Positions 1 through 60,950 of a stretch of DNA of 64,000 nt are shown here, one piece after another. The stretch comes from Macrocystis pyrifera (lineage: Eukaryota; Sar; Phaeophyceae; Laminariales; Laminariaceae): contig JASSKH010000030.1 in the NCBI GenBank assembly GCA_031763025.1, positions 6,067,495 through 6,131,494 on the forward strand. Direction: 5' to 3'. The translations under genes and the position numbers were made by a program. The first letter of the stretch is position 1. Every line of letters starts with the position of its first letter. The notes under the pieces were generated by a model. The model searched no databases. It was not told where the DNA came from and worked only from the letters and a program-made list of their open reading frames with translations.

Positions 1-1240
1 CTAAAAATACTGGAATATAAAGTTTTTGTGAATGTGATGGGTCCTGATTACTATCGTACCTGTCGTTGTGCAAACGTTGTGCGAGATCTGTAACATAGTA
101 CCGATCCGACCCAGGAAACTTTGTCCCAGATCGTGCCGCGTGTTTCTACACTCCCCACCCGGCACCATGAGCTATATAATATATTTTCAATCAGACTACG
201 CAAGATCAGGAACACACATAAAACCCGTAGTACGCGCGGTGGAAGTATCACTAGTACACTACTGTAGTATCACACACAGCTTGCTAATATGAGCTTCGAG
301 GAAACCCTCGATCTCACAGCTGTTGTTTTTTTTGTTGTATATGTGGAAGAGAGGGTCGCCGGACCGGTGTTGAACTCCCGTGTTTGCTCAATAGGTCGGC
401 TATAAGGAACGGATGCAAGCACATAAAGGCTGATGTGTCTCGATCCGACATATCAACGCCTTACTTCCTAAACTAGTCATCCCGCTGACCGCCACAAGAC
501 CATCCCTAGCTAAGATGGACTTGAGGCGAACAAAAAGGGGGGCGATGTGGAAGACAGGGTCGGAGAGATACCTATCGTAGATCTCGTAACACGCACGCGC
601 GAAGGACACGTCACCGGTCAAGCAATATCAAATCTCGGGTCACGAGCCGTCTCACGTCATTGACGGTGTTGACCCGTCCCCGGGAGATAGCTATCGGGAG
701 ATTATTCCACCGCAAGACTTCAGGGGGACCTAAGTCCTCCCCACTGAGTCAGACTTGGTCTAGTATCTCCTTGCTAAATATCAACGAAGAATTCTGCTCG
801 GCGTACGTCGGCCGCAACGACGGATACAGGGGACCCTCGCCTCGCGACCTCACCACGGCGACTTCTCCGCGACTTATTGCCGGCGATGTCTCCGCGACTA
901 CATCGGTACGAACGACGAGCACAGGATCTTCATATATATAATATATATACCTGGTATGAAGTATATAGATTGCTCTAAAAAAATCATAGATCATGCGGAT
1001 TGTTTCCGCGGCTCCCCATCCGGCAATATCCAACTATATCTCAGGCGGATCAGGAATGTATCTGCGACCCTGAGCGGTCTGCATCACGGAGTGGGAATAC
1101 ATTGTATGTCCGAGCTGTGAATGAACTGTTTCTTCCGTGACAGATGAAAGAACGTGTGCCGAAAAAGCGAAAAACATGTCACGACTGACACACATGACCG
1201 ACGGCTACGTATATACGTATCATTCGAAAAGGCATTTCAA
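1..1240. other. No gene recognised
   Basis: Open frames on both strands here are short, overlap each other and show no domain, splice-compatible chain or codon bias that I can recognise. Positions 30-60 resemble a decayed end of the TA-inserting MITE family (GGTCCTGATTACTATCG). One TACCTGGTA 9-mer lies at 948-956 inside an AT-rich stretch. Confidence 0.4.
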
Positions 1241-1246
1241 ACTTGA

Positions 1247-1290
1247 TCACCCCCCCCCCCCCCCGCCCCCCCCCACCCTCCCCTCCGATC
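1247..1290. repeat. Poly-C tract
   Basis: Almost pure C run broken by single G and A bases. It is one of more than fifteen long C or G runs in the window, several of which end dispersed repeats. Confidence 0.9.
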
Positions 1291-1765
1291 CCCCGTTACA
1301 CCAAACTACTCCCCGTAATATAAATAATACGCTGCAAAACACAGTTCGACGCGAGTCGACGATAGAAGGAAGGACTGCTGTCTTTCTCGCGATAAAAAAT
1401 GCCTGCCGAGGCATGAACCGTCCGTATCGGGGAGGGGGGCTAAGCTAAGAGCTTATTATGTGACGCCGAACCTGAGCTACTACTATTGCATATAGGATGG
1501 AGAGAAAAGGAGGGCGAAGACGAAAAATGGGATAGAAACGAAAAAGAAGAAAAGCGGTACTACTGCCGCCGCTCCTGAGACCCTCACAGCATGTACTACA
1601 TACAGCAGTAGCAAGAAAGCGAGAGAGAGGCCAGGTTCAGTGCCGACATTTTCACGCATCGAACAGATTTTATAGGTCATTGATTCCCACGGCATGATCC
1701 AGATCTTCCCACAGGGGAGATATATTCGATTCCTGCTTTTGCACGACCTACATACAGCATAACAC

Positions 1766-2022: not shown

Positions 2023-2181
2023 GTGTGATACGGTAGCTCATACTACCGGGCGGGAGGAGCCGTATATTCTGCTCGATACGTCTGTAATTCGTCTCGGGGG
2101 GGGGGTGTGATATCTTATCACCCGTGTGATACGGTAGCTCATACTACCGGGCGGGAGGAGCCGTATATTCTGCTCGATACG
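1970..2181. repeat. Tandem duplication, two ~105-bp units with poly-G
   Basis: Unit 1 (1970-2080) and unit 2 (2081-2181) both run from CTG(A/T)AATTCGTCTCGGGG through a G run, GATATCTTATCACCCG and CGTATATTCTGCTCGATACG. They differ mainly in the length of the poly-G run, so the duplication looks recent. Confidence 0.9.
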
Positions 2182-16375: not shown

Positions 16376-16670
16376 CCACCTCCAAAGCGGTTCTTAGTAA
16401 GATGCAGCTAACCCCCATCATGCGACTCGCCCAACACCTTACTGCGCTTGCGCGCTTGGTGCAAGCCATGTCTGCCTGGTCGGTGAAAACCCGACGTGCT
16501 TCGTCCCGGCATTGTAGGGAGACGAGGGTCTATGGTCATAAGACTAGGGCCATGCATGATATCGAGTATACCCCGCCCCCCCTGCAGCTCACTCGTCATA
16601 CGATTCGCCGAATACCTCACGTTTCGATTTCGCTCTTGGTAAGCAAAAGCCTGCCTGGTTGGTGAAAACT
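16376..16670 (+). mobile_element. PC1 repeat, 3' part plus a second partial unit
   Basis: First unit from TCCAAAGCGGTTCTTAGTAA to GAGTATACCCCGCCCCCC (16581). It is followed by CTGCAGCTCACTCGTCATAC...CCTGCCTGGTTGGTGAAAAC, the start of another unit that stops at a TACCTGGTA 9-mer (16670-16678). Confidence 0.8.
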
Positions 16671-16678
16671 ACCTGGTA

Positions 16679-17395: not shown

Positions 17396-17534
17396 CCCCT
17401 ACGGTGCATGTTTTCATTACTTTATTGTCACGGTGCCTGTCTTCATATTCCTTCCCCGTCGACTCGTGTGGAATAAGAGCCGCTGACCGCGTGAAAATAG
17501 TGTAAGCAATACCAGGTACAAGGTATAAACTACG

Positions 17535-17979: not shown

Positions 17980-20365
17980 ATGCGACAATCGCCGTCCCGA
18001 TCGAAGAAAAACAAGCACGAGTACCAGGTATATATACACACAGTAATAGACGCGTGCCACAATCGGCACAGCACTTTTTCGCTTTTTTTTTTTCTGACTG
18101 CTTGGTCTCCTTGACCCGAAACCGTCGGAATGCCATGTTTTTTTTTTGCAGTATGACTTTTTGTGCTTAGGCCTTGGGAGTATTCATCGGGTTGTAAACT
18201 CTTTTTTTTCTCTAAATCGGTTTTTGGGTGAGATACATACCAGGTAGCTTCTTTAGGTCAAGACAGGAACCCCAGAAAACACTGGTACACCTCTACCCTC
18301 AAGCACGACGTGAGATTATGTTAGTTCCGAAAGAACCGCATGGAAACACGTCACGAAAGACTGCGTGCCGACTACCAGTTAAACGCGTCCGGGCGCCTCA
18401 CACCGCAATCGCATACCTTAGCACCTTGTTACTGTCGGAGAGGTTTGGAAATTCGTACACGATGTTCCCACGGGACAACCAACGGTGGCAGAAGCCCTAA
18501 TGAACTAGGCTACAAGTTTCGGGACATTAAGGAAGAGAAAGAACCCGCAGAAAGGATACGAGTTAAACGAGCGACGACATTGAGATAAGAGGAGGGTCAA
18601 CAAGTATGGGCGTGACCTCATGCCGCTGCAGGGAGACCTCGTTGACCCCAAACTATATACGAATTAACCTACGACGCGATGTTACGACAGTACTCTGAAA
18701 CAGAAAGAGGGGACGCCCGCAGGGTGGATCCCTCTTCGAGAAAGCCTCATCGTTGTACTAAGGGCCAGCGATTGAGTATCACTCCGTGAGCGATGTCGCA
18801 GCTCTACAACGGCACGACAAAGCAGAAGGAAGTTAGGAAAAAACAGGCCTTCCCGCCCGCCCGACAACAGCGACGTCAGTTTCTGTTAGTGCTTATTTTA
18901 CCGGGGTACCCACTCTCTGTGACAAGGTGCCGCGTTGATTGCCAGACAAATTAACGCGGGAGTAGTAACCCCGAGCGAGAGTCTCCGCGCTGGTCGCAGC
19001 AGGAGACATCACTGATCCCAAGCTATATACCAGGTACGAAACAACCTACGACGCGATTTTATAGCAGTACACCTCTACCTTGAGTGTGTGTCAACACGTG
19101 CACCGCAGTATCAGTGTGCGGTAGCGGAACGGAAATACTACGACGGGCTGTAGTATAAATACACCGTCGTTCCGTATCACTCGCAAATAACAAAAAAAAT
19201 CCCCGGAGAATATCCATGGTGTGCGTACCGTATTATACCCGAAAAAAGAAAAACACGGAGCAACAGGGTCAAGAGGGTCTCTCTAGACCCACCCACGCAC
19301 GTACCCACCCACCCACCCACCAGCCACGATCCAGGCAAGGTCAAGCACAAGCATTTCTCCCCGGCGGGGCTCCTCAATTTTCTATCCGATATATATATGT
19401 ATATATATGTTTTTTAAAGCAATACCAAAAAGGGAGATAAGCTCGCACAAGGGGTACGTGCGGTCGTTTGGATGAGCGCTCGTTTTTCTCTCGACAACAA
19501 ACGGTGCGGCTTGCTAAATTAATGTCCGAAAAAAAAAGTTTACTACTTTCGGAAGGCTCTAACTCGACCAGATCATTCTGCGAAGAAAAAACGCCGTATT
19601 GTTCGGTGTTAGCAAAAAAAATTTCCCCCCGTTATTCTGGAAACATCCCGCGCTGAGAAAAAAAAAACAAAAACAATCGCACCCCCCCCCTTGCACGACC
19701 TCTTTCGTATAAGGTATTACTGGCTGTTGATAGGCACCTATGTGGATTAACCCCCCATCGCGTGTGTCGGGGGGCGGGGGGTGACTTTTACGCATGTTGT
19801 TTCTCGAAAAAGCCGGTTGTTGGGGTAAGGGTCTTTTCAAAGGCCCCTCGAGTGAGCATGCCTCAGAAACCTTGCTACTGTACAGTATGTGCTATGTACG
19901 CCTACAGTACCGCAGCACAATTACTACCTGGTATATGGTACACCACTCTGGACGGGAATATAAGAGCCCTTGAGTGTTCTTAGTGTTTTTGAACAAACGA
20001 TCCAAATGTTTCTGCCCGTATAGCGGTATTCCGTCTCCCTACTGCGGTTCGTTTCATGTAAGTATTGGATTGGATGAGGCCTCCTGCGCCGGAAGGGCGG
20101 ATATCGTCGCCTGGTAAGCCCCCACCCACGCGCGCTGCGGTGGGCGCTTGGCTGGCGTATCGTATGTTCAGCGCGCAGTTAGTGCATGCTCGTACAGTAT
20201 CTTGGTGATGCTATTGGGAACAAGAACATGTTAACGTCGCGCGCTGACATCGCTACCGAATCGAGAAACTGGACACACAGAGAAAACCTTCGGCTGTGGC
20301 GAATGAGAACACAAGCCGTGTGCACCTCACGTCCAAACAACAACAGCTCTCGAGCATCACTGCTA
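17980..20365. other. No gene recognised; short repeats
   Basis: 18105-18230 resembles 38215-38345 (CGTCGGAATGCC, TTTTTGTG, CATCGGG). A ~60-bp segment recurs at about 18640-18690 and 19015-19065 (CCCAA(A/G)CTATATAC, CCTACGACGCGAT, ACAGTAC). Four TACC(A/T)GGTA 9-mers lie at 18022, 18238, 19028 and 19925. 19938-19980 is a left-end fragment of the F3 MITE. Open frames are short and unsupported. Confidence 0.45.
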
Positions 20366-20446: not shown

Positions 20447-20699
20447 TGTTGCGGTGCACTGCCGCAGAGTTTTCACTGCTCATAACGCGTACTTTCTTGT
20501 TTGCAGTTGGGCGCGTGCAACTAACTGTCTGCTGTCGTTATGCATACCTGCCATACATCCTGCAGATTCGAGTTGTACGTACATGCGTAGTACTATGTAC
20601 AGCGTACAAACTCCGCAGCACACAAGGAACGATTGGTGCGGTTCGTCCGGGACGATGTTCTTCTTGAAACGCATGCTTGTACCTGGTACTGGTGCTAAA

Positions 20700-22210
20700 C
20701 ATTGAGCTATTTCCTCACAAGCGCGATGCTACTACAATAGTAGCGGCGAACGGCAACGGTAAAAAATACTAGACTGCTGCTGCAGTAGAGCTCTGTTAAC
20801 AGCGACAACGGGCCTGTATATCACGCACAGCATATATACGGCTGTATAAAGCTGAAAGTTCTCGGATGTTTCCATGGGTCGGTCCAGGATAAACAGCCAG
20901 GGGAGAGGAGTGAAATGTTGCCCTGATTTTGTTGTTATTGTTGTCGTTGGCTGTTGATACAGGTAGCGAAGAGAGCTACAGCCTTCGCGACAACGGGTCT
21001 ACATACATACCGCGCACAACCACATCATCCGGCAAGCTCAAATTGTTGGATTTTTATCGTCGGTGTAGGGTAAACAACCCCGGGGCGCGCGCGGGGGGGG
21101 GGGGGGGGGGGGGTGTACTCGATATCATACATGGCCGTAGTCGTCAAGTGGGGGGGGGGGTGGTGCAATGTTGTATTTGTTTTGTCGTTGTTGTTGTTGT
21201 TATCGTTGCCGTTAGCTGTTGATAGCGTCAGCGAAGGGAGCTAAACCTCTCAAGACAACGGGAGGAAACATCGCGCACAAACATCGGGCAATAGGTCTGT
21301 GTAGGATAAACAACCGGAGTGTGTGTATGAAGGAAATGTTGTATTTGCTATCATTGTTTGTCGTTGGTTGTTGGTGGCGAGTGGTAGCGGAGGGTATTGC
21401 TTGCCGATGCTGCCGGTACGCACCATAAACAAAGATAGCTTGCTTCGGTTCTTACTTCGTTTTCAACCCCCCCTCCGTCGGATGGATTCGGGGCACATAC
21501 AGACAAAATTATTCTCCGACTACGACGCACCTGGTATACAACGCAGTAGGTTATTTTTCGTTGAAACGGCACAGCAGTAGTAGGCGCGTGCCGGCATGAA
21601 CAGAAATATCGACAAAAGTCGGTACAACTTTTGCGATGGTGGTGATGATGGTGATGATGATGACGATGATATAACTTTCTTCGCAGTGATGAAAACGAAC
21701 CTGTCAGATTGTCTGTTTTCTTGCTGTCACGTACCAGGTACCAGACATTTACATATTGGGTTCGCCCAGCAGCGTACCACACCCTTGTGCACCCCTTGCG
21801 CACCACCCCCCGCGGCAGTCTGCCACGTGCGTTTTATCTTTTGATTTTTGGTGGGCACTTATGCCCCGGTCTAAGAGCGAGCGCTCCGTGGCAAGCCTAA
21901 GCAAGCACTCCTTGACGACAGGATTGCTCTTATCTGTGGCGGACAGCATGTATTTTGTTTTTTAGACGGAAGCCGTCAGATCGAAAACATACTCAAAAGT
22001 CATATTTGTAAGCTTGGTGTGATACTATTAATAGTGATCATTCGATCGCGCGTTCCACGGGGCGTGCACGTAGGTTTTTCAGAATTGTCTACAAAATGAA
22101 TCCAGGTTCCAAAGCGACTGAATCGCCACCTACCAAGCATGCCACACAGGTGGCATAGGTTTTAGAATACAGGCGGGACATGCCGATTCGGCTACACTCT
22201 GAAAATCCCG
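20700..22210. other. No gene recognised; GTT-rich repeats and poly-G
   Basis: Two related segments around 20915-21000 and 21160-21260 share GTTGTTATTGTTGTCGTTG-like runs, a GCTGTTGATA core and AGCGAAG(A/G)GAGCTA. A third diverged one is at 21330-21400. 21088-21150 has two poly-G runs around TGTACTCGATATCATACATG, a minus-strand PC1 end fragment. A GATGATG repeat is at 21637-21670. Confidence 0.5.
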
Positions 22211-22563: not shown

Positions 22564-22979
22564 TAGTAGGGTTCGAATTTTTGGGCACCATCACCACCGT
22601 TCCTATCGAGAAAACGAGAGAGCGCTTAAAAACGATCGCACCCCTCACTGCTGTGCGAACTCGACACTATTCTTTGCGGAAAGCTACTGCTGCAGCTTTG
22701 TCTGTGGTGGGCAACCCATACCAGGTGCAATACCTGGTACGAACAGTATTTTAGTATATATACAGGCGGGACATGCCCATCTGGCCGCTCTGAAATTCCC
22801 GAACTATCGTCTTTAGTCTTATCTTTTTATCCAATGGGTCTCTATTGAAAGAGGCGTTCCCACTAACTGCTCCCCCTTTGGCGCTTCGTTCGGAGCGGGA
22901 CCGCGTGCCACGATGCGTGGGGTATCAGCACTTTTTCGGCCTTCGGCTAAACTATTCCTGGCATGACCGGGCTCCTCAA

Positions 22980-25078: not shown

Positions 25079-25079
25079 A

Positions 25080-27707: not shown

Positions 27708-28075
27708 TACCAGGTAATGTATAATGTACGCGTACTACATACCAGTACCTCGTACCATTCGAGTATGCGCGTCAGCTTGTTCCTGCCGATACCTGTGGTA
27801 CGTTTTGACAGGGCTCTGGTCACACACGATGAAAGAACAGGTGTCAGGTGGCGAACGTAACTACAACAACATACATTATGTATACATTATACCTGGTATA
27901 CATTATGTATACATTATATACATTATGTATACATTATGTGTACCTGGTACCTTACATACACCTTATATATGCATTAAATATACCTTATATATGCCTTATA
28001 TATAAATTATATGTACATTATATATAAATTATACGAGTATACGAAGTATACATTATACATACTTGATACCCTGGT
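27708..28075. repeat. TATACATTATG minisatellite with embedded 9-mers
   Basis: Irregular array of about 10-11-bp units (CATTATGTATA and variants). It is interrupted by TACCAGGTA (27708), TACCTGGTA (27890) and TACCTGGTA (27941); the 27890 copy sits exactly at a TA of the array. Confidence 0.85.
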
Positions 28076-28439: not shown

Positions 28440-29720
28440 AATATATACACCGGATACTGTCGGATTTCAGACAAAGAAACGTGGTGATTTATTGTTGTCG
28501 CCATGATATATAGCCCTCCAACAATATGTGGCTCAAAACCTCAATCACTCTGTTGTTAGAGATGCGCCATGACCACTAAAAGTGAGCTCTTACGAAAGTA
28601 GCCAGCGCTGACTACTGTCAATAGCTCAGTCGGAACGGTGTTGTCTCTAGCCAAAAGCACAATGCGGTGTCCAGACTTCCTTTTAAACCTGGATCCGAGA
28701 TTGTGCTCTCGACGAAAGTACACCTTGCCATACGTAGCTATTTCAGCAGTCAGCCTGGACCCTGGACCCCAGATTATGCTTGAGTTGGAGACGCACTCTA
28801 GCCACTGAGCTACTGCTGTAGCTGTCAGCGCTGACTGCTGCCAAAGCTTCTGGTGGTATAGCCTACAATCGTTCCGCTAACAATCAGCGATGACTGCTAG
28901 GTCGAGGGTAAGAACCCTATCAAAGCTTGTCAGCACTGATTGCTATTGTGGCTTTCGGTGGTGTAAACGGCAGCCGCTTAGCTAACGAGCAGTGCCGACC
29001 GCAACGCAGTCCAGCGGTATGAAACCCAACCACCGAGCTAGGTCAGTCAGCGATGACTTCTACTAATAGGTAGCTCAGTGATTACGGTGTACCTGGTATT
29101 ATGGTTTTTCTCCAAACCAAAATTTACAATTTGAGAGTCCAGGCTAAGCAGTCGTGGACAGGCGGGCAGAACCCCCATAATATTGTACTTTTTTGTTGCG
29201 AAGAAATGTTTTGAGCTATTTTTATTATTAATAGTAGTCGGCGCTGACCGTTGGCTAGCTCAACGGTAGTGTATGCCGTATCTCGAACACACTCATATAG
29301 CCTGTATTTTAGGCGCAAGAACCCCCCCCCCGCGCGCAGAAAAAAAAAGTTGTTGTACGTAACTGTTGACAGAACACAAAAAGCGCATATCATGCACATA
29401 TACTTCGAACACTGCAAGTGCCACGAGTACACTCGCATATGAACCCAGGGACTATATACAACGATAAACAAAGCGCGCGGTCTCATCATGCATCATCCGC
29501 TGCGAGTGCTCGTGCGAGTTTTGAGCCTCGGGCACCAGACGCTACACAACGAAACAGAAAAAGCGCAGTCCTTCCTCTCACCAACCCCGTTCACGACTCT
29601 GTCCCTGAAAACATGCAGAACATTCTGACGAAAAAACATTAATGCACTAAAACCGCCGTTACAGTTTGGGGCCATTCTATCCCCACATGTAACTACCGCT
29701 TGTACATTATTTTTCAATTA
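28440..29720. repeat. Degenerate repeats with AGCGCTGACT and AGCTCAGT motifs
   Basis: Between 28600 and 29260, CAGCG(C/A)TGACT(G/A)CT-like motifs recur about eight times with GTAGCTCAGT or GAGCTA motifs, at spacings of about 60-110 bp. The same AGCGCTGACT core forms the 24-25 kb minisatellite. No gene recognised. One TACCTGGTA is at 29090. Confidence 0.5.
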
Positions 29721-29754: not shown

Positions 29755-29889
29755 TGACAGCAGGGCGAGAATGAATGAAGAGCGATCTGCAGCAGCAGGA
29801 GCAGTAGGTGCGAGTACAGAATCGTGGTTGACCCTCTTTTTAGTACTGCACCATCCCTTAAACATGTACCAGGTATACGGATCCAACTT

Positions 29890-31123: not shown

Positions 31124-31220
31124 ATTACGTACGGTACACCCAAAAATCTACCAGGTATACTTGTAACCTTTCCTATTTTTACAAACAATATTTGGTCCTA
31201 TGTACTATAGTCCCTCGTAA
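31124..31220 (-). mobile_element. F1 MITE, left arm deleted, with embedded TACCAGGTA
   Basis: The right arm TTTGGTCCTATGTACTATAG is intact. The left arm is reduced to TTACG followed by TACGGTACACCC. The core normally reads AAAACCTATATATTTACC; here it reads AAAATCTACCAGGTATAC, that is CCAGG plus a repeated TA at a TA (31149-31157). Confidence 0.8.
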
Positions 31221-31700: not shown

Positions 31701-31718
31701 TATATTATATACCTGGTA

Positions 31719-33561: not shown

Positions 33562-33691
33562 CTGGGAAAAATCGAGCGCTAAGAACCGTTCGATCACGCC
33601 TCCTGTGCGAACTCAACGCCCTTTCGGCGGTATACCTGGTATAAGCTTAACGTATACGGCGGTGCATACCACACCCCGGTGATAAGTTGTT

Positions 33692-45620: not shown

Positions 45621-45652
45621 ATATAGATTTTTGTGTATAACAAAGGTCCTAC

Positions 45653-45688
<36 letters not shown>

Positions 45689-46023
45689 CCATCACTTTTA
45701 CTTTCCAGCCCACTCGTAGGAGGTTTTACCCTCGACGATCTTCTGGACAAGCCGTGGTCACAGGTGTCGTCCCTTCTCCCCCCCGGTGTACGTGCCTTTA
45801 TTTTTTGTCGCGCATAGAGTTCAGCATTCCCACTGCTCGTCGATTTTCATCGAATGTAGCCAACTCACGCTTTTTTCGCGCTTTCCGCTTATTATTATCA
45901 ATTTTTTATGCAAGAAAAAGTCCCTATGAGCATGCACTCGGTGAGACTTGAACCCGCCAAATTGATCTTGACAGGCACGCGGACCACCTACCAAGCCACC
46001 GGGGACGCCGGTCCCCCGTGGTA
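45590..46023 (+). mobile_element. F1 MITE split by SINE1
   Basis: Left part TATACGGGGGACCATAGTAA through GTCCTACTTAC. The right terminus GGTCCCCCGTGGTA reappears at 46010. An internal deletion removed part of the left arm. Confidence 0.8.
45657..46010 (-). mobile_element. SINE1, full-length copy
   Basis: Starts with a T run of 30 (the poly-A tail) and ATCCATCACTTTTACTTTCC; ends at the tRNA-like head, GCCACCGGGGACGCC. B box on the complement: GGGTTCAAGTCTCACC. Confidence 0.93.
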
Positions 46024-46116
46024 TATACCTGGCAAGATTTTGAAACTGGTTGGTTGGTTGGTTGGTTGTGCTGCATGATCGATGGTTGGTTATTATGGGT
46101 ACAGCAGTGTCTACCA

Positions 46117-46221
46117 TTACGGGGGGGCATAGTAAATAGGACCAAATATTGCTGGTAAAAATATCGAAGTATATGGGTGTTTGTGTGCACCGTAGGTCCT
46201 ATTAACTATGGTCCCCCGTAA
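46117..46221 (+). mobile_element. F1 MITE, mixed arms
   Basis: The left arm is the TAAATAGG type, the right arm the ATTAACTATGG type. The two subtypes are combined in one copy. Confidence 0.9.
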
Positions 46222-46229
46222 TACCATAC

Positions 46230-47130
46230 TGCTGTTGGTAGCATATATACCTGGTACGGCAAGACATAATAATGCTTCTTCTCCCCAAAGGAAGGATGAA
46301 AAAAAAAGCCGTTGCCATCAAGTCTACAAGGAGAAGATGTGAAGAGAGATGCATGCGCATACAGAGTACGTGTAGTACATACATACGCATGTTCTACTCT
46401 ACAGGCAGTACCTGCCTTGGTATCACACACCACACACACATCGTGTTTGACCACGGAGTAGGTGTTGTACAGGATCGTCACCAATCCTGACATATTTTCC
46501 ATTCTCATTTCTTTGTCGTGTGTGTTGCCACCGCCGCACACCATACCAGCTATAGTTTAGAACTTACATTGGTACCAGGTAACACGCAAGAATACAAGAT
46601 TACAAATACAACGTGAACACCCCCCCCCCCCCCCGCTTCCTCTGTATTGCATGTACGATATGCATGGAAAGATTTCCACAACGATATCTTTCCGAAGCCA
46701 CCGTTCATGATATTTATACCACTCACTCCAGGCGGAAGCATAAGGAACGTTTAATTGTTAATGTAAACATCAAGCGGTCATTATATTCACGTCCACAATG
46801 AATGGAATTTTCTTTCGTGTGTGCCCTCTCGTGTCTTGGAGAATGCTCGGGTCCGAAAAATATCCCAGCCAGGGTGCGTGCGTTGGCTTGCTTGCTTGTT
46901 TTTGCTTGCTTGCGTGTTGTTATACCCTCACTCGTCGTGTGGCAGTTGGCTTATTCCAATGTATTGTATGTGCGTGTCCGTGTATGCTGCCCCACACATT
47001 TCGAGTATTATTATTGGTATAAATAGTATCGCTTTAAATTCGTACCAGGTATACGGAGGTTTTTATAAATAGTAGTAGCAGTAGTAGTATTAATAGTAGT
47101 AGCAGTCTAGTGGTGTGGTAGTAGTAGTTG
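46230..47130. other. No gene recognised
   Basis: Three TACC(A/T)GGTA 9-mers (46248, 46573, 47043) and a 14-base C run at 46620. Open frames at 46797-47072 in three plus frames overlap one another and are Cys/Leu-rich (tyg-cty repeats); I do not accept them. Confidence 0.4.
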
Positions 47131-47135
47131 TAGTA

Positions 47136-47240
47136 TTACGGGGGCCCATAGTTAATAGGACCTATGGTAAACAAAAAAAACTATATAATTACCTATTTTT
47201 ACTAGCAATATTTGGTCCTGTTTACTACGGTCCCCGGTAA
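47136..47240 (-). mobile_element. F1 MITE
   Basis: TTACGGGGGCCCATAGTTAA to TTTACTACGGTCCCCGGTAA. Sits in a GTA trinucleotide-rich stretch (47070-47400). Confidence 0.92.
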
Positions 47241-47278
47241 TAGTGGTGGTGGTAGTAGTAGTAGTAGAAGTAGTAGTA

Positions 47279-47383
47279 TTACGGGGGTCTATAGTTAACA
47301 GGACCTATGGCATACATAAAAACCTATATATTTAGGTATTTTTACTAACAATATTTGGTCCTGTTTACTATGGTCCCCCGTAA
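47279..47383 (-). mobile_element. F1 MITE
   Basis: TTACGGGGGTCTATAGTTAA to TTTACTATGGTCCCCCGTAA. Same orientation as and 38 bp from the previous copy; both in the (GTA)n tract. Confidence 0.92.
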
Positions 47384-47428
47384 TAGTAGCAATAGCAGTA
47401 GTAATCAGTTTCCCAGGCACCAGTGTAT

Positions 47429-47769
47429 GCCGGCGTCCCCTGTGGCTTGGTAGGTGGTCCGCGTGCCTGTCAAGATCAATTTCGTGGGTTCAAGTCTCAC
47501 CGAGTGCATGCTCATAGGGACTTTTTCTAGCTTACAAAATTGATAAGCGGAAAGCGCGAAAGCGTGAGTTGGCTACATTCGATGAAAATCGACGAGCAGT
47601 GGGAATGCTGAACCCTATGCGCGACAAAAAATAAAGGCACGTACACCGGGGGGGAGAAGGGACGACACCTGTGACCACGGCTTGTCCAGAAGATCGTCGA
47701 GGGTAAAACCTCCTACGAGTGGGCTGGAAAGTAAAAGTGATGAAAAAAAAAAAAAAAAAAAAAAAAAAA
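47429..47769 (+). mobile_element. SINE1, full-length copy
   Basis: Head GCCGGCGTCCCCTGTGGCTT, A-box-like GGCTTGGTAGGTGGTCCG, B box GGGTTCAAGTCTCACC, tail GTGATG plus about 27 A. Confidence 0.95.
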
Positions 47770-47863
47770 GTGTCAGTCAGTCGTTGTTTTGTGTCTGTTA
47801 CTCCCCGTGGATGGGCATTTTTTTTCATAGGAGATAAAAATATACATACCAGGTATTATATAC

Positions 47864-48200
47864 GCCGGCGTCCCCGGTGGCTTGGTAGGTGGTTCGCGAG
47901 CCTATCAAGATCAATTTCGTGAGTTCGAGTCTCACCGAGTGCATGCTCATCGGGACTTTTTCTTGGATAAAATTGATTAGCGGAAAGCGCGAGAGCGTGA
48001 GTTAGCTGTACATTCGATGAAAGTCGACGAACAGCGGGAATGCTGAACCCTACGCGCGATAAAAACTAAGGGCACGTACCGGGGGGGAGAAGGGACGACA
48101 CCTGTGACCACGGCTTGTCCAGAGGATCGTCGAGGGTAAAACCTCCTACGAGTGGGCTGGAATGAAAGTAAAAGCGATGATGAAAAAAAAAAAAAAAAAA
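47864..48200 (+). mobile_element. SINE1, full-length copy
   Basis: Same orientation, 94 bp after the previous copy. B box GAGTTCGAGTCTCACC is closer to the canonical Pol III B box. Body GCGGAAAGCGCGAGAGCGTG. The tail of about 18 A is followed at once by TACCTGGTA (48201). Confidence 0.95.
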
Positions 48201-48440
48201 TACCTGGTATATATAATCTGAGGCCGACGCGGATGTCGGCTACCTCGTATGAGGATGCCTGGCACGATACGGACAGTGGTAGTATAACGAGCACGTAATA
48301 AAATCTGCACGTATCGTGTACATATACGCACGCACGGAATTTTACGGCGTATACATAAGAATACACGACATGAATGCTCGTTGTTGGGTGTCACCTTTGC
48401 TGACACGTATACGGGCAGGGAGAATAAAAGAAGGGGCAAA

Positions 48441-49301
48441 TGCCAAAATCAGGTATACCTGATCCGTTTGAGCCAAAATAAGGTACATACTAAAACCAAG
48501 TAAAAAACGCGCGCCACGAGCGGTGTGATGTCCATGACAATCCGGAAAAAAAAAGAATGCGCCTAGTAAAGCATTAAGCGTGCCACACGGCCTCCAAAAT
48601 CTGAATTGTTTTGTGTTCTTCAGGGTGTAGGTACCACGGGCTCCAATTGGACCTGCAAAGAGTCACTACTAATATGCTTCGTTTATTTCGCCACGGCGGG
48701 AGCGCCAAGAGTATATACTCTGGCGCCCCCCCGCCGTTGGCAGCTTCAAAGCTTCCAGACCGTCCTCGCGGAACCGCCTGCTCGGCACGAAACTATCTTG
48801 CCGTACCAAACCTGAGACCACCTCGATGCGGGGTGGTGCAGACGAAACGCCGAGTATCCATGGTGCTGTAAAGACTGATGTGAACATAGAAAGCAACAGA
48901 GCAGTACACACGATAACTAACTGAAGCACATCGTACACTTCAAAGGAGAAAAAGTGAGACCAGCGTACGCATGTATGCATGTATATACGTGCTTTTACGT
49001 ACGACGTACGAGTACAGAGTTTATACGTCAATACAGAAGAAATTCAACCGAGGGAGGGCAGACGCATACGGAGAGAAAAAACAGTGTACGTATGGCCTCT
49101 CTGATTGGTTCAAAGTTGGCCAAAATCAGTTGAAAGCTAGACAGAGTAGAAAAAATCAGGTGTACCTTGGCCTTTTCGTGCCAAAATCAGTTACAATATC
49201 AGCTTGGCCAATAGCAGGGTTCCTGGTGTGTGTGTTCGTACTTGATTTCAGTATGTAACTGTTTTTGGCACGAAAGTGGCCAGGTATACCTGATTTTGGC
49301 A
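48441..49301 (+). mobile_element. TIR element F6, left arm of a large inverted repeat
   Basis: Begins TGCCAAAATCAGGTATACCT and ends with its inverted relative CAGGTATACCTGATTTTGGC. Terminal similarity extends about 65 bp (GTACATACT.AAA.C.AAGTA). 861 bp, no recognisable transposase. Homologous in opposite orientation to 53845-54713. Confidence 0.85.
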
Positions 49302-49315
49302 AAAACCCTAAAAGA

Positions 49316-49741
49316 AGACACCTGGTGACCATGGATCGCTGAGGGTAAAATCTTGGTTTAGATTCAAAGCAATAGTAGTAATGAAAATAATAATAAAAAA
49401 GTCTCAGCCGGTCGCTCCCGTGGTTCAGTGGTACCCTCGAACGTTGATTCCATGAGTTCAAATCCCACCCACGGTTGAGAATTTCAGAATTTCTTTATTT
49501 GAAAAGAAAAAGGAATCAACTGCTGAGAACGCGTAGCGTGGGTAGTAGTACGTAGCGGGTAGGCGCAAGTAGACGCCAGTCGACGAAAAAAAAAAAAACG
49601 GCTGGCGCCTTGTCGCGATAAAAATGTAGGCACGAACAGCAGTAGTGGGGAGGGGGGAGAAGAGCCTGTTATGTATGTGTGACCCCGCATCTGAGTTACG
49701 ACTACCAAGAAGCGAGGGAAATAAATGGTAAGAAAAAAAAA
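49316..49741 (+). mobile_element. SINE2 with a preceding SINE tail fragment
   Basis: 49316-49399 is a SINE tail (GACACCTGGTGACCATGG, GAGGGTAAAAT, ending AATAATAATAAAAAA). From about 49408 a complete second SINE follows: A-box-like CCGTGGTTCAGTGGTACC, B-box-like GAGTTCAAATCCCACCC, body GTCGCGATAAAAATGTAGGC, GTGTGACCCCGC, tail GGTAAGAAAAAAAAA. The insertion interrupts the left arm of the large inverted repeat. Confidence 0.75.
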
Positions 49742-50138
49742 CAATACATACCAGTAGATACACCAATATATATATATATATAAAATATATGCCCAACCAC
49801 TAAAAACACTATAATCACTACTACATGCAGGTGTTTTCATTTGAGGATGTCACTTTTGCTTTAGGATCTGCCAATTGTTGTGTTCAAAGAACCAAGACAA
49901 CAATGCACAAGCCGTTTTTTTTCCAACGATGCCCTGACTAAATACGATAATTCGCGTTCTGGATTGTTTTTACTTTTGTTTCCGCTTCTTGGTATATCCT
50001 ATTGCAGGTACTTTGTAACACCGTCCGTCAACAGGTTATGAGCCTCGGTGTGTTTGGCGCTGTACCTAGAGCTGCTGTCCATCAGGTACGTCAAGCATCG
50101 AATACGCCTGAGGTTCAAGCTGCTACTATTAATGCATA

Positions 50139-50230
50139 ACCCTTTTAGGACTACAGTTCTGTTTTGGGGACAACTACTTAGAATTAGAGTCGTTGGTCCC
50201 CAAAATGGGACTGCGGTTCTACAAGGGTTA
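50139..50230. mobile_element. F2 MITE
   Basis: ACCCTTTTAGGACTACAGTT to CTGCGGTTCTACAAGGGTTA. Confidence 0.9.
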
Positions 50231-53200
50231 AACTCGCGCATACACCAGATACCAGGTTTTGCTGTGAGTTCCTTCGCAGAGCTTCGGTGATCATCACCAT
50301 TTGCTAGGAGCTGCTGCTACGAAGGACAAGGTCTACCTCCCCGCAGAGCTGCCGAGCAAGGTCATAGTCACCTGGAGCTGCTGCTGTGGTGCTGCGACGT
50401 GCCAGATACTCGATTTCTATAGGGACCTACCTGCTGCAAGCGTCGTAAGTACTACCACTTACCGGTGCTACAATACATCGACGGACGGCACGCTGCACGA
50501 GACATAGCGTTCGAGTGTCGAATACGACGACTACGATGATGGGAGACTCCAACGTAATCGGCAACATCATCAACGCCGTGAGGGTGTTTGTCGTGGGGCA
50601 AGGCGAGTCTAGGTCGACCGAGGATATGGGAAGTGCGGGAGGACGGGATCGTAAAAGAGCGACTTCGCCGTGCCTTGAGAGAACAAGAAGAAGCGGCGCA
50701 ATAAACGAAGAGAAAAGCCGATCATCGACGACGGCTTTAAGGTCGTCTTCCAGTCTAAGGGCGCATGAATCCCGGAAGAAAGAAGAATTATACTCTTTGG
50801 GATTGCTGGAGCAACGTCATCATTGTCTGGGATCGCCATCATCATCATAATATCGTCTCGTGGGGTGCTGGAGCTTCGTATTGCCTAGGGTCGCTCATGG
50901 CGAGGTTGCCGGAACGCGGTTGTTGGAATCACGGCACAATTATAGTGGGATCGTTGGAGGAACGTCCTCTGGGATCGGTCCACAGTACCATCATCTACAA
51001 CAACAGGAGCCGCCGGAGTATCATCACCACCATGAGCTGCTTGACGCGGCGTCTTCGGGAAGACGTTTTCGGGACCGCTCAAACATAGTCCTGCGAGATT
51101 GCCAACAATGCAACTTTCGGAGTCGCTGCAGCACTGCTGTTCGATGAGATTGTCGGAGCTTCCGGAGATCGCGATAATATCCGAAGTGTCTTTCGGGATC
51201 GGTCCACAGTATAATATGTGATGGGGTCACCGGGGGAGAACGTCTTCTGGGATTACCGCATCATCATATGGGTTGAGGACCGCTGGAACACCGCTTTTGG
51301 GGTCGCTGAACATCATAATCGGTTGGGGCTGCTGGGACATCGTTTCTGCGGTCGCTGTACCATCATCATTTGAATCTCCAAGAGGGGAACGTCTTCATCG
51401 CCCGGGATCGCACCAGCTCAATGGCATGATTAGTCTTATCGCGGTGCCGCACGTCTTCTGTGTACAGGCGGGGCAGGAACGTGGTAGGCTGCTTCGTATA
51501 TATTTCCTCCGTGTTCTTGACCAGCAAACTGATAATCGAAACATTGTTTATCCCTGAGATGCAGTCGCGATTTTTTGCAGTAATACATATGTTGCCTACA
51601 CCATGGCTGTGTTGAATGTGTTCAAAGGCAACTTGTGATAGTTAGGACTGCTGTTCGACTGGTGTCCTTTCAGAAGTAAAACCTACGGCTGATTGCGGTG
51701 TCGTGGTATCAAACGCACGGAGAAATATATCGTATCGAGTTTGTCTGTCTCGTATATGTATCGTGAGACCCGCGCGGGGTCCAAGGGCTGTCGGTGATAT
51801 GTGTGCGGTTTGTATGCTTGCCCTTGCTTCAAACCTGTCACAATATTACGCCTATACGTTGCCAAGTTACGCGTAGCTGTTGCGTTACTAGCTGTAGAAG
51901 GATTGATCACCTGTGGTGAGCGAAGGAGGAACGGTTGATGTTGAAGCGGCGCGGCGAAGGATTATTCGATCTTTTGCTGCGACAAACCACAGGCAGTAAC
52001 GGATTCCACACGTAAATATGCAGACAAGTGAAGTACACGAAGTAACAACAATAACTAATTATGGGAGTTGTCGAGATATCAACAATATAGGAAGTACGCT
52101 ATATAAGATGTAGTAGTCAGTTGCCGTTAGTATCAAGCACGAGTGTGAGTACGTTACGTTATACCAAGCTGACACCAGTTACGTTACACTGTTAAGATAG
52201 GCTCGGGACACTTGGTCGACTGAATAAGTACAATAGTTCGATGGTTATAACAGTGATTTAGAATTTTCTCCCTCCATCGAGGGGTCGTGTTGATTTAGGC
52301 ACTTTGTTATTAAAGCTGCAGTAACCTGTATCCTACCTAGTCGCTGATGGGTAACAATGTCGTCTTATAGTAGCAGGTAGTAGGGATATAGATACTAGCC
52401 CATCCATCTTGAAAATGTCAATTTTGGATCTTCACCGGAAATGTTATTGTAAGGATATGTAATAATAGTAATAATAATATATCGTACTGCAAAAACGAAA
52501 AAAAACAATCGAGAACGCGATTTTCCATTTATACTCAGGGCATCGTTGGAAACAAAAACGACGTGTGAATTGTTGTATTTTGATGCTTTTGTGAAGTGGG
52601 GTGAAGAGATAAAAGCTGGTAAGGGGACAAGAATGTCGGTGCTGGGTAGAGCACGCTGCTTGCAGTTCACGAACTTCCTGTCAATGCTCCTCAAGTGAGT
52701 TGAGAGGAAGGGAAAGAACTCGAGTGAGCGATAGTGGGCTTCGCCAGGAACACAGCTCGGCCCAGACGTCGACCAAAACCAACCTGCATGCACATACAGT
52801 CTATCGGGACGTTGTCATACAGAAGATTCCCAACTATAACAGAATGTTCACTACCGGGACGTTGTCATACAGAAGGTCCCCAGACTTATAACATAATGTT
52901 CTGTGGGCAAAGGGGATGTCTTGAACTGCTCCACTGAATATTCCGTAAGAGCTATGTAGAACTATATAGTATTCGCCTGCAGATATTTCCCTACGTGTCT
53001 ACATACAACCATATCATATTCGTCTACAGGTATGTCTGATATCTGCAAAGAACTACGTGCAACCATACGAGGAACCGCATACGGGTATATGCGTTCCTAT
53101 ACAATGGATGTGCTACTCCATCACATTAGCCCCCCCTGAATAGTCGTAGATGCAGATCACATGGCGATGAAAGGATGATGACCACATCATCCCAAAATCG

Positions 53201-53750
53201 GGAAGAGGGATCGAAGTTGCGGCTATTCAACACAGAAAAAAGGTGATAGGTCTACCCCACACCTCGTAGTGAGGCTTCGACGCCTCATTCAAGAAATAAC
53301 CGAATATCCGGAAGGGGAAAAACTAAAATGGAAGAAACCAGACTAGGCGCAAATAAAACGGAAGAAACCAGACAAGGCGCAAGGGCTCGAAAGAAAACGA
53401 AGGCGAAAGACAATACGTTGGCGGGAAGTACGCCGCAAAGCTTGGAAGAGAACGAAAACGGGGTCTACAACGTGGGGCCTCGAGGCTGACAAGAACGTGA
53501 AGCCAATAGACTAAGGCGTGGAACCCTGAGCGGTCAGCTGGTAAACACTGTAGCGCAAGCGGGAAAGTGACACGGTCTTTTTCTCCGAAAATGCATACCC
53601 TAAAAAGGGCGAGGGCATTAGGGAATGCCCCGTATACTGCAAGGCAAACAGCAAATCGCGGGTCGTAACAAGGCCAGTCGCGGCTAAGACAAGGACGTTA
53701 ATCAAAAGGGGGCCAAAGAAACACCTGGAAAACGGCAACAGAAGCATGGA
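50231..53750. other. Interior of the inverted repeat; no gene recognised
   Basis: 50800-51420 is a degenerate ~60-bp array (GGAACGTC.TCTGGGATCG, CATCATCAT). 52815-52905 duplicates CCGGGACGTTGTCATACAGAAG with ACAGAATGTTC. A 53-codon ATG frame at 53328 (METRLGAN-type repeats with KKTKAKDN) and a 132-codon minus frame at 52395-52793 are unrecognised. No transposase or reverse transcriptase is visible. Confidence 0.45.
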
Positions 53751-53844
53751 ATCTAGAACACAACAATTGGCAGAAGAGATATAGATCCTTGAGCAAAAAG
53801 TGAATTCTCAAATGAAAACCCCTATATATTTTTTAAGGGTTTTA

Positions 53845-54713
53845 GCCAAAAGCAGGTATACCTGGCCACTTTTCGGCCAAAATCAGTTACATGCTGAAAA
53901 CAAGTAAAAAACACACCCCAAGAGCCCTGCTATTTGCCAGGCTGACATCGAAACTGATTTTGGTTTGAAAAGGCCCAAAAGGTATACCTGACTTTTTCTA
54001 CTCTGTATAGCTGTTCAAATGATTTTGGCCAACTTTGAACCAATCAGAGAGGCCACATACGTACACTGTTTTTTCTCTCTGTATGCGTCTGCCCTCCCTC
54101 GGTTTAAATTCTTCTGTGTTGACGTATAAACTCTGTACTCGTACGTCGTACGTAAAAGTACGTATTTATACAAGCATACATCATGTGTACGCTGGTTTCA
54201 CTTGTTCTTTGGGGTGTGCGATGTGCTTCAGTTATAATAGTTGTTGTGGTGTGTACTCTGTCGTTTTCTATGGTCACAGCAGTCTATACAGCACCATGGT
54301 CACACTGCATTTCGTCTGCACCACCCCGCGTCGAGGTGCTCTCAGGTTTGGTACGGCAAGATAATTTCGTACCGAGCAGGCGGTTCCGCGAGGACGATCT
54401 AGAAGCTTAAAGCTATCAACGGGGGGGAGGGGGCAGAGTAAATACTCTTGGCGCTGGCGCTGTGGCGAAACAAAGCATATTGATAGTGACTCTCTGCAGG
54501 TCCAAGTGGAGCCTGTGGTACCTACACCCGGAAGAAAACAGAGCAATTAAGATTTTACAGGCCATGTGGCACGCTTACAATGCTTTAGGTGCATTCTTTT
54601 TTCACCAAATTTTCATGGACATGAATGACACCGCTCGTGGCGCGCGTTTTTTACTTGGTTATAGCATGTACCTGATTTTGGCTCAAACGGATCAGGTATA
54701 CCTGATTTTGGCA
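53845..54713 (-). mobile_element. TIR element F6, right arm of a large inverted repeat
   Basis: Inverted copy of 48441-49301 (GCCAAAAGCAGGTATACCTG at the inner end, CAGGTATACCTGATTTTGGC at the outer end). Homology continues inward: CAACAATTGGCAG and TCTCAAATGAAAAC at 53759-53817 match inverted sequence at 49826-49890. Confidence 0.85.
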
Positions 54714-54910
54714 TTTCCCCTTTTTTTACTACAATACTCCAAAAAAGAGGGTTTAATCACACATACTACCTGGAAAAACGACTAATACAGAAACAAGTAA
54801 CCAGTCAACACAACACACACCAAACACAAAAACCCAGGGCATTCCTCGGGACGCTTTTTCGACCCCGGGACGACATCCCGCGGGATTCAGTTACCCCGCT
54901 TGTTCCTGTG

Positions 54911-57015: not shown

Positions 57016-57029
57016 GTGATCATCCCTTT

Positions 57030-58209
57030 CAAGGGTGTGTTCGGTACGGTACTACCGAGGCCTACCGGCGGTAAAATACCGCCGGTATACCTGTACCGAG
57101 AGGATTCGGTACGTTCGGTCTGGAGTTCTATACCGTACCGACAATTTCGGTACGTTCGGTCTGGAGTTCTATACCCTACCGAACATTTCGGTACGTTCGG
57201 CACGATGTCCGTACCCTTACCGGCGGTATCGGTATGATACACCGTACCGATACCGAGAAGCTCGGTATGTTCGGTACGATGCCCATACCGGTACCGAGAA
57301 TTTCGGTACGTTCGGTACCATGTCCATACCCTTACCGAGAACCTCGGTACGTTCGGTACCATGTCCATATCGTACCGGCGGTATCGGTATGACACAACGT
57401 ACCGATACCGAGCTTATACCCTACCGAGAGTTTAGTATCCGCGTAACCTTCTGTAGCAGGCAAGTTCAGGGGTTCGAATCCCAGCGGCAGCGCCTTTTTT
57501 CTCATGTTATGAGTTTTTTTCCTCTCGTTGTCGTGTCTTGCCGGTGGATAGCGCGCAAGCGTGTGTACACAGTGGGAAAGAGGTGGCTGGAACTCTTCTC
57601 GCAATAAAAATTTCAGTCAGTACCGCAGGAGGATGGGAGTGGGGGCCTCAGGGAGAGGAGCCTTCTGTGTGACCACGGTTTAGACGTTCAGGCAAGACAA
57701 ATAATACCCGGTGTGGTAAGGCGCCCATCGAACTCTGGAAATGAATGTGATGACAAAACAAAAAAAAAAAAAAAACTGTCGCAGACACACACATTCTTGA
57801 TGGGCAATACCATGGTACTGCTGTGGAGCGACGCTCGGTTTGACAAATACCGCTGGTATCTGCGGTACGGTACCGGTATGGAGGTCTATACCGTACCGAG
57901 AATTTCGGTACGTTCGGTATGGAGTTCTAAATCGTACCGAGAATTTCGGTACGTTCGGTCTGGAGTTCTATACCCTACCGAAAACTTCGGTACGTTCGGC
58001 ACGATGTCCGTACCCTTACCGGCGGTATCGGTATGATACACCGTACCGATACCGAGAAGCTCGGTGTGTTCGGTACGATGCCCATACCGGTACCGAGAAT
58101 TTCGGTACGTTCGGTACCATGTCCATACCCTTACCGAGAATTTCGGTACGTTCGGTACCATGTCCATACCGGTACCGAGCGTACCCGTACCGTACCGAAC
58201 ACACCCTTG
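57030..58209. mobile_element. Non-autonomous hAT-like foldback element with 8-bp target duplication
   Basis: Termini CAAGGGTGTGTTCGGTACGG and CCGTACCGAACACACCCTTG are perfect inverted repeats of at least 20 bp. ATCCCTTT stands on both sides (57022-57029 and 58210-58217). An 8-bp duplication and a CAAGGGTGT end are hAT-type hallmarks (established knowledge). The inside is a palindromic minisatellite around ACCGAGAATTTCGGTACG. A ~230-bp block is present twice in direct orientation (about 57110 and 57900). No transposase. Confidence 0.88.
57441..57775 (+). mobile_element. SINE3 inside the hAT-like element
   Basis: B box GGGGTTCGAATCCCAGC near 57469. Body CGCGCAAGCGTGTGTACAC, CTCGCAATAAAAATTTC, TGTGTGACCACGG; tail GTGATGACAAAAC plus A run. 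The A-box part is missing or too diverged to see. Confidence 0.8.
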
Positions 58210-58528
58210 ATCCCTTTTACTTTCCAGCCCACTCGTAGGAGGTTTTACCCTCTTACCCTCGACGATCTTCTGGACAAGCCGTGGACACAGGTGTCGTCCC
58301 TTCTCCCCCCCGGTACGTGTCTTTATTTTTTGTCGCGCATAGGGTTCAGCATTCCCACTGCTCGTCGATTTTCATCGAATGTAGCTAACTCACGCTCTCG
58401 CGCTTTCCGCCAATCATTTTTTTTATTCAAGAAAAAGTCCCTGCGAGCGTGCACTCGGTGAGACTCGAACTCACGAAATTGATCTTGATAGGCTCGCGGA
58501 CCACCTACCAAGCCACCGGGGACGCCGG

Positions 58529-60950
58529 CTACCTTATAGTAGATACATCTCTCAAGGCATATATATCTATTCCCAATATTTGTATGATCTTGACATTGTT
58601 CGCTCATGTTGCCGGGTGGGACCCACCGGTGTACACACATTAATCTGCGTTATTATATATATATGATCTTCTTGTAGTTCATACCTGGTATTTACTACTG
58701 TGGGTTGAATCTATCTGCACTACGATATGCAGACCCTGCATATATAACATCACACAACGACAGGTGAGGAATCACACATACATACTCTTGATTGAGTATT
58801 ATTATATATAGTAGATGATATTCTAATACTACAACATACACTATTAATAAATGCAGATAGATCATCACATGATCTGTCCAAGGTGTGCACTTACTTATCA
58901 CAGGACCACGAGATATTATGTTATATCCCCAATCTCGCACAAAACCACGGGACGGGTAAATCCCGCGGGAAAAATCCCGGGGAATGCCCTGCAGAAAAAC
59001 AAAACCGGACGTATCATACGTACAAACGAAACCACACAACCAACCACCACAGAAAAATGCACCACAACCCACAACTCGTCAAAGAAAAAGTCTCGCCGCT
59101 GTTGTTGCTGTATATCAGGTACCAGCTTTTACTTGTGTGTCTCTTCGATCGAAAAGCTCATTCAGGAAAGAGCAGATGCGGTCAGGCCTCTTGAAGCCAG
59201 AGCCAGAAATATAAAAAAAAATACCGAATGCGAAAGACACCGGAGCGACACGCCGGCCGAGACGCCGACAAAACGCACAACCAACCAAACAAACGTAGAA
59301 ACGCAAAACACGATGAAAACAACCATCATCATCAGCATCACCATCAGCATCACCATCATCATCATCATCATCATCATGGTCGGTGCGGGCTCGAGAATGT
59401 GTAAGTAAGTGTGGCACGTGGCAAGACGGCAGGACTGACTGCAGTGAAGCACACCGAGAGTCGGTGTGCCTGTGCCCCGGCATAGGGATGGGAGGGTTCG
59501 GAAGTATTTTCATGAAATACGGATTATGGATAGGCAGAAACCAGGATACAGCAGTAGTTCTGATTTTTTCATCGCTGCATCGTACTTGTCTGTGTAGCTA
59601 TGACATGATGTACGCAAGAAGTTCCCGAAACAATTCCGAGTTGCGGCAGCAAATCACTACCTCTGGCACTCTGTACAAGATATGTTTTTCCAGCTGTAAA
59701 AAGCCTAAAACCTCTCCTCCAAGTCCGAAAAGCACCAAAACATCACCGTGATTCAACCTTCCTGATTGGCCGTGAATGACAGTCCCGCCGATCCAAATGG
59801 TCAGCTGCCAAAAAAGCGGAGCCACTTGGCATCCAGCATGGTCCGGCTCCGAGCCCTAAACGTAGATAGATGTGCGGGTTGGGTCCGGGATTGAAGGTGA
59901 GAGCAAGGGGGGGTAGGTGAGCGATGTGAGTCAGAGGAGGACTTCGGTTCGAGAGTTGGCGCCACTCGTGCGCACGCAGCACCACGCGCCGAGCGCGCTG
60001 CTTGGCGCTCGCAAGCGAGTAGTGGAGGGAGGAGAACGCAAATATCCGAACAGACCAACGACCCCTTGTATCCCTAAAGATTTCCATTCTGATGGCAGTA
60101 CCAATATTAGTATTTTTAGATTTTGTCAGCATCTTTTGCCTCAAAGATAATTCTCCAAAGTACAGCAGCAGCAGGCATCCTCGTCCATCTCTCTCTCCGC
60201 GAGGTAAATCATACCTGTGGTATTCTGCACAGCAGTATAAGGGATACAATAGCTTGCAGAAAAGGCCTGCAGGCAGGCTGGTTTTCATTGTAGAGGACTG
60301 TTTCTTCTGCGCGTGCTCATCGTCGATGTCGCGGAGTCTCTCGCCCGTCAGCTCGACTTATCCCTCCGGCGAGCCTGCGGGCGCACGATAGCTTTGGAGC
60401 TTGGGCTGTGGAGATATCATAGATGCAAAAAAAGGAGAATTCGTACACACAGCAAGATTCTGTGATTGCACGCGAGAACACCGAACAAGACAGAAACAGG
60501 TGTCGCTTTTCACAAGATAAAATCCTTGCCAGGTGTCCCTAGTCCCAAATATTTCAGGAAAAGAAAACAATTCGCACTTTTTGGGAGCATTTTAAATTTT
60601 GGGAGATTCGACATTTTCATGAAAGACCTGAGAATTTTTGTCGGGCATAGATAGGCAACATAGGCAACCGAAACAGCCCACACGCGGGGGGGCGGAAACC
60701 GAGACAGGCAGTAACCTAGGAAGAGCTGTCGGCGTACTCGAACGGGTTGGGGCCGATAACATTGAGGTGATGACACTGCGCCCAGATCTGTTGAACGTTG
60801 GTGGTGGAGCTCCTACCGAACGCGTGAGAGGATAGCTACAGATTGGCGGCTCATCATTGCTTGGTTTTTCTTTGCCAGGTTGGTTCGCGCTTCTGCTATA
60901 CAGGGTACTACTACCACTGCTGGTGTGCAGCTGTGCTGCTGTGCTGGCTG
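58529..60950. other. No supportable gene
   Basis: A minus frame of 181 residues (59743-60288) and plus frames at 58851-59408 and 59383-59751 overlap and show no domain. (CAT)n/(ATC)n at 59325-59378 is a microsatellite. TACCTGGTA is at 58682. Upstream regulatory sequence of gene B probably lies in the right part, but no specific element can be named. Confidence 0.35.

Follow-up and report, generated by a model that had tools for sequence, protein, structure and literature searches.

Dispersed TACCWGGTA motifs in the Macrocystis pyrifera genome as candidate excision footprints of a TA-targeting transposon

In a 64,000-nucleotide stretch of the genome of the brown alga Macrocystis pyrifera (assembly GCA_031763025.1, contig JASSKH010000030.1, positions 6,067,495 to 6,131,494 of the forward strand; in the following the window), the 9-mer TACCWGGTA, in which W is A or T, occurs at scattered sites, as it does throughout the assembly. 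At five repeat-anchored sites in the analysed DNA, comparison with related repeat copies confirms that the motif originated when seven bases were inserted at a TA and this TA was duplicated. We regard the motifs, with a probability of roughly 0.6, as excision footprints of a cut-and-paste transposon that targets TA and has ends starting near CCAGG.

An earlier note on the window had listed 24 exact copies against a chance expectation of about 0.5 per 64 kb. All 24 starts indeed carry TACCTGGTA or TACCAGGTA, and 100 dinucleotide shuffles of the window gave a mean of 0.53 motifs (largest number 4). As the two 9-mers are reverse complements of each other, they represent a single sequence in two orientations, so that the idea of the central W as proof of an A:A mismatch was dropped. 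A versus T at the centre reports orientation only, and C or G also occurs there: genome-wide, the central C/G version is found 12,109 times (control 2,024), about a tenth of the frequency of the A/T centre. The search of the whole assembly (537,376,219 bases in 223 contigs) yielded 121,279 copies of TACCWGGTA versus 2,421 of the reversed control word ATGGWCCAT, and this count of about 50 times the control, far from a background expectation, is the source of interest in the motif. In a 264-kb set comprising the window plus twenty 10-kb stretches spaced at regular intervals (G+C 50.0%), of which the twenty stretches contribute 49 copies, 73 copies compare with 2.29 and 2.26 expected from second- and third-order Markov models respectively. 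When TACC and GGTA are separated by 0 to 4 bases, a single A or T alone stands far above all other spacers in this set, with the C/G centre found once. The window is denser in the motif (24) than the genome mean (14.4; p = 0.013). A limited literature check found no publication evidently dealing with dispersed TACCWGGTA insertions, which does not prove that they are unpublished.

The origin of the motif can be read where it lies within repeats. The 80-bp flanks of 84 motif sites were joined around one TA and ungapped matches were sought elsewhere in the analysed DNA, whereby 20 sites had a homologue spanning the site. At five of these all homologues are empty and show a plain TA, namely at window 19028 (three homologues), at window 31149 in a copy of the F1 miniature inverted-repeat transposable element (MITE; three), and, outside the window, where L-numbers label analysed genome stretches and C-numbers contigs, at L007 2917 (six), L019 1055 (one) and L027 7602 (one). 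At these five sites, the empty homologues reading TA, the motif is therefore a 7-base insertion at TA with the TA duplicated, and we infer the same route for the remaining copies. An identical procedure applied to 981 other TAnnnnnTA 9-mers gave 288 control sites with homologues; an intact homologue was present at 194 of them, an empty one at 15 and exclusively empty ones at 8. Exclusively empty homologues are hence found at 5/20 motif versus 8/288 control sites (p = 0.0006, or p = 0.0004 upon removal of the control case L027 7595, which overlaps a true motif), and any empty copy at 5/20 versus 15/288 (p = 0.006). The flanks of empty and filled pairs are about 72–88% identical, so the repeats that carry the motif are old. 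The proposal of the earlier note that a TA had been replaced by TA-CC(A/T)GG-TA accordingly holds at the five sites with empty homologues, including the F1 MITE copy, where its consensus was said to possess a TA; for the copy at window 27890 in a TATACATTATG array, replacement fits by eye, but the sole alignment is uninformative.

Beyond the insert, the sampled copies share no extended flanks, in agreement with the earlier note, and their flanks have in common only a weak palindromic consensus, approximately TAAnnnRTAYnnnTTA. With the high genome count, neither outcome that the note had named as a refutation was thus obtained. A longer repeat family, or an ordinary dispersed repeat or MITE, was rejected as the flanks are unrelated between copies. 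With the insert removed from 83 aligned sites and both arms pooled, which builds the symmetry of the target into the count, the surroundings of the TA are AT-rich and palindromic, with T favoured at −7, A at −6 and −5 and a purine at −1. In the 264-kb set, sites beside another scar being omitted, T at −7 accounts for 47% versus 27% (126 arms; chi-square 43, 3 degrees of freedom), while the signals at −6, −5, −3, −2 and −1 are weaker. A preference common to both arms is expected of a transposase dimer acting on TA. A palindromic target, ATATATAT, is described for ZB, a Tc1/mariner element (PMC7913693).

On the excision reading, a transposon would insert at TA and duplicate it, and later excision by a staggered cut a few bases inside the element ends would leave five terminal bases of the nearly identical inverted ends on each flank; joining of the near-palindromic overhangs, whose annealing would yield a near-palindrome, would then give TA-CCWGG-TA, that is CCAGG between two TAs. 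CCAGG is in fact nearly palindromic, as would be expected of a pair of inverted ends, a property met 1 in 16 times by chance. Such a course would imply a longer element once present with ends starting CCWGG or similar, and a transposase most plausibly of the IS630-Tc1-mariner-pogo group. Under steady germ-line excision, scars could reach the observed number, each neutral scar having the usual chance of fixation. The Sleeping Beauty scar TAC(A/T)GTA is a three-base analogue. Excision of mariner and Stowaway elements is described as leaving the target duplication plus terminal bases, while PIF/Harbinger excision is usually precise (PMC4561436).

The distribution and the variants of the motif bear on its history. 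Clustering had been noted by eye and is borne out, with 0 to 8 copies per 10 kb (variance/mean 2.5, 26 bins) and nine neighbouring pairs less than 100 bp apart versus 2.75 simulated, a number reached in 2 of 2,000 simulations; this local clumping fits local hopping. Absence from gene exons, also claimed, was not established: open reading frames of at least 150 amino acids make up 27.5% of the sequence and contain 13 of the 73 copies, not significantly few (p = 0.07). Doublets TACCWGGTACCWGGTA that share one TA are found 5,620 times genome-wide (control 0) and are what is expected of insertion into the scar's own TA. Doublets in which the middle TA reads TG or CA (TACCAGGTGCCAGGTA) were also seen, two full and one partial (L014 4318, L018 9296, window 27351), compared with three intact doublets in 264 kb. 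Single-base variants of the motif outnumber their controls by thousands, which is the pattern expected of decay. Expressed as a share of the excess of exact copies (121,279 minus 2,421) and with the reversed control subtracted, the change of the centre to C/G amounts to about 8.5%, of the first C to T to about 6.4% per arm and of the second C to T to about 2.3% per arm, whereby these rates are rough because the reversed control does not provide a matched expectation and some counts are inflated by tandem copies, such as those about 183 bp apart on contigs C2, C15 and C17 in the case of TATCTGGTA. An early impression that the second C never mutates failed genome-wide. Decay of roughly 2–8% per site suggests that the motifs built up gradually and not in a single recent burst.

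Another short word is in excess as well. TACCGGTA is found 16 times in the 264 kb versus 3.9 expected, with four copies within a minisatellite of the window and 12 elsewhere (L011, L012, L014, L015, L018, L019, L021, L023 and L028), and may represent a minor class of footprint that lacks the central base.

Several results weigh against an origin by excision. The earlier note had suggested a search for elements with TACC...GGTA ends and an encoded transposase, and none was upheld in the 288–362 kb covered: neither 288 kb nor 362 kb contained a TACCWGG...CCWGGTA element whose inverted repeats were convincing, although 362 kb is so small a part of the 537 Mb that a parent present in as many as some hundreds of copies could escape, and a one-sided search for repeat boundaries showed no parent either. 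In the genome, the profiles DDE_3 (Tc1-type) and Transposase_1 (mariner-type) gave no match, with only 3/14 and 0/14 control genomes respectively matched by them. DDE_1 (pogo-type) has at least 39 matches, and the existence of such open transposase frames counts in favour of excision, but they could not be tied to the scar. The five bases of the presumed footprint exceed the 2–4 bp given for Tc1/mariner elements in an account of ZB (PMC7913693), so that it would represent a longer version of such scars. Moreover, the product is very uniform, with no variable family of footprints seen save the possible minor TACCGGTA class. Among the 20 sites with a spanning homologue, six have an intact one, some of them within duplicated neighbouring DNA, and nine gave neither an intact nor an empty homologue in clean form. 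Finally, about 990 doublets would be expected from independent insertion (at 11,039 TAs per 200 kb), which is exceeded 5.7-fold, and among 100 listed of 524 places 36 triples were counted by eye, 28 in one orientation throughout and eight mixed. From the doublet excess and the mostly uniform orientation of the triples it follows that tandem duplication probably contributes some of the copies.

A number of candidates for the parent element were considered. The 45 inverted-repeat pairs with TACC or TACCWGG ends in the 288 kb consist mostly of F1 MITE pieces, long inverted repeats within the window, satellite sequence and scars adjacent to one another, and L014 2746–9615 resembled an inverted duplicated stretch around a long terminal repeat (LTR) element. 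A weak 51-bp candidate, L012 3771–3821, emerged from the 362-kb search; its 19-base pattern has 21 exact matches genome-wide and 3,535 with up to two mismatches versus 184 for the control. The 72 one-mismatch matches listed with letters divide into 37 intact TACCWGGTA scars that share the AT-rich tail and 35 other sequences. Up to contig C193, six exact (TG) matches stand against those 37 scars, a ratio not far from the 14 to 146 seen in the sample for TACCWGGTG against intact scar arms, and the candidate is therefore not upheld, though not firmly rejected either. Among the six DDE_1 loci fetched, L042–L046 agree to about 98–99.6% along most of their length, with L041 as a distant relative (72%); a Pfam search recognized DDE_1 and, just above cut-off, HTH_Tnp_Tc5 in the L042 frame, and DDE_1 only in that of L041. 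One of the five similar copies is situated some 11 kb short of the end of contig C194, and DDE_1 matches of similar score are located on further contigs; this is possibly a recent expansion. DDE_Tnp_4 (PIF/Harbinger) has at least 145 matches in the genome. Its best-scoring family A, alike for at least 6.7 kb, was rejected as the parent as it starts near ATAATAGACC and not with CCWGG. For the DDE_Tnp_4 family at L029–L036, copies of at least 6.7 kb are about 92–99.7% identical and start near ATAATAGACCACTTGC. Scans of 60 and of 10 (in part the same) of the 277 open reading frames kept from the sample gave, beyond domains of LTR retroelements, only weak unrelated matches.

The excision reading has to be weighed against explanations which dispense with a lost element. 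A transposase acting on short end fragments, or a polymerase engaged in break repair, might add CCAGG and the duplicated TA directly; the imprecise excision put forward by the earlier note fits, but, the parent not having been found, it is not conclusively separated from such an ultra-short insertion. Direct addition would account for the uniformity of the 7-bp product, for the lack of a parent in 288–362 kb and for a copy number that far outnumbers the transposase matches of both DDE_1 and DDE_Tnp_4. On the other hand, a parent present in up to some hundreds of copies could have been missed in the portion examined, and we know of no enzyme for direct ultra-short insertion at TA, which counts against this explanation, so that we consider it unlikely. 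Had there never been a parent, a new mechanism would be at work; that more than 100,000 direct 7-bp insertions at TA by an undescribed kind of enzyme constitute the shortest dispersed ‘mobile’ sequence known is slightly more doubtful still. Spread of a 7-bp tandem unit, (TACCWGG)n, could draw on the 5,620 doublets and some longer arrays, but no more than 11,240 of the 121,279 sites can belong to doublets, and the motif is thus not mainly tandem as a microsatellite would be; most copies are single, and single copies at unrelated sites first require an insertion, which makes this route very improbable.

Target sites of PIF/Harbinger-like transposons (PHIS, NuwaI or Harbinger3_DR-like) with a duplicated CWG within ACCWGGT and precise excision would provide the core of the motif without any footprint. 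Duplication of CWG is reported for NuwaI (PMC4482050) and the target AAACACCWGGTCTTT for Harbinger3_DR (PMC3016246), and the DDE_Tnp_4 matches in the genome speak for the presence of such transposases. The empty site, however, is TA and not ACCWGGT; CCWGG being wholly new there, the target-site model leaves its arrival unexplained. Neither was a terminal inverted repeat element flanked by CWG recognized among the pairs listed (8/19 for CAG, 8/12 for CTG), and we hold this explanation to be improbable. The CTG-flanked inverted pair L017 1112–4472 extends beyond the CTG. A protein-binding motif kept or spread through selection, as its near-palindromic nature and non-random spacing might indicate, meets with the objections that the traceable copies are precise 7-bp insertions within decayed repeats and that single-base variants are above controls by thousands, in keeping with decay; we give it very little credence.

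The positions of the motif in the window are compiled in the table.

Table. Copies of the TACCWGGTA motif in the window (positions counted from its first nucleotide).
Position	Feature	Remark
948..956	TACCTGGTA, predicted insertion scar	exact match
16670..16678	TACCTGGTA at divergent repeat edge	related copies read ATATAT, no clean empty site
17510..17518	TACCAGGTA	exact match
18022..18030	TACCAGGTA	exact match
18238..18246	TACCAGGTA	exact match
19028..19036	TACCAGGTA	3 empty (TA) paralogous sites; alignments start at window 18624, L010 707, L010 1060
19925..19933	TACCTGGTA	exact match
20680..20688	TACCTGGTA	exact match
21732..21740	TACCAGGTA	exact match
22731..22739	TACCTGGTA, 12 bp downstream of one-base variant TACCAGGTG	exact match
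27708..27716	TACCAGGTA	exact match
27890..27898	TACCTGGTA within 11-bp-period (ATACATTATAT-like) tandem array	
27941..27949	TACCTGGTA in the 11-bp-period array of 27890, 51 bp further	
29090..29098	TACCTGGTA	exact match
29867..29875	TACCAGGTA	exact match
31149..31157	TACCAGGTA within F1 MITE copy	3 other copies carry TA
31710..31718	TACCTGGTA	L023 relatives differ by indels at site, no clean empty site
33633..33641	TACCTGGTA	exact match
46248..46256	TACCTGGTA	exact match
46573..46581	TACCAGGTA	exact match
47043..47051	TACCAGGTA	exact match
47847..47855	TACCAGGTA	exact match
48201..48209	TACCTGGTA	exact match
58682..58690	TACCTGGTA	exact match

Besides the motif, the window contains other repeats. 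Between inverted repeats of about 900 bp, 85% identical and holding the palindrome ATCAGGTATACCTGAT and related repeats, lies a 6.3-kb stretch (48427–54727) inside which no long open frame was found. Around 46–48 kb (45640–48200), nested inverted repeats reach lengths of 234 bp and are 94% complementary, and two minisatellites with a period of 41 bp and differing sequence are located at 24240–25072 and 57105–58179. The copies of a further repeat family open with several Gs in succession, after which most of those shown have TGTACTCGATA or something close to it; mostly 70–79% identical, they are found at window 4300, 16676–17207, 26676, 32243 and 32997 and at L037 1558.

Should the motifs be excision footprints, about 120,000 past excisions, minus tandem and segmental duplicates, would be legible in the genome, and rate, target choice and age of cut-and-paste transposition would be measurable from them even in the absence of the transposon. 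Repeat finders are not designed to list dispersed units of 7 bp, and similar records may go unnoticed in other genomes. A TA-specific transposase this active would also be of interest as a tool.

Among known systems, footprints of Tc1/mariner/pogo elements such as Stowaway, Sleeping Beauty and ZB share with the kelp motif the TA target, its duplication, the few bases left between two TAs and an AT-rich palindromic target, while the kelp motif differs by its five instead of 2–4 bases and by one dominant sequence at about 120,000 places whose parent has not been found. NuwaI and Harbinger3_DR have the ACCWGGT core in common with it, but duplicate CWG, whereas here TA is duplicated and the insert CCWGG holds CWG once. 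The internal eliminated sequences of Paramecium possess TA boundaries and resemble the kelp motifs in the huge number of TA-bounded events at precise sites. At least 45,000 of them are reported (PMC3894167); these are germ-line inserts which are retained and removed in somatic development, while the kelp, in an assembly derived from a gametophyte, shows scars only.

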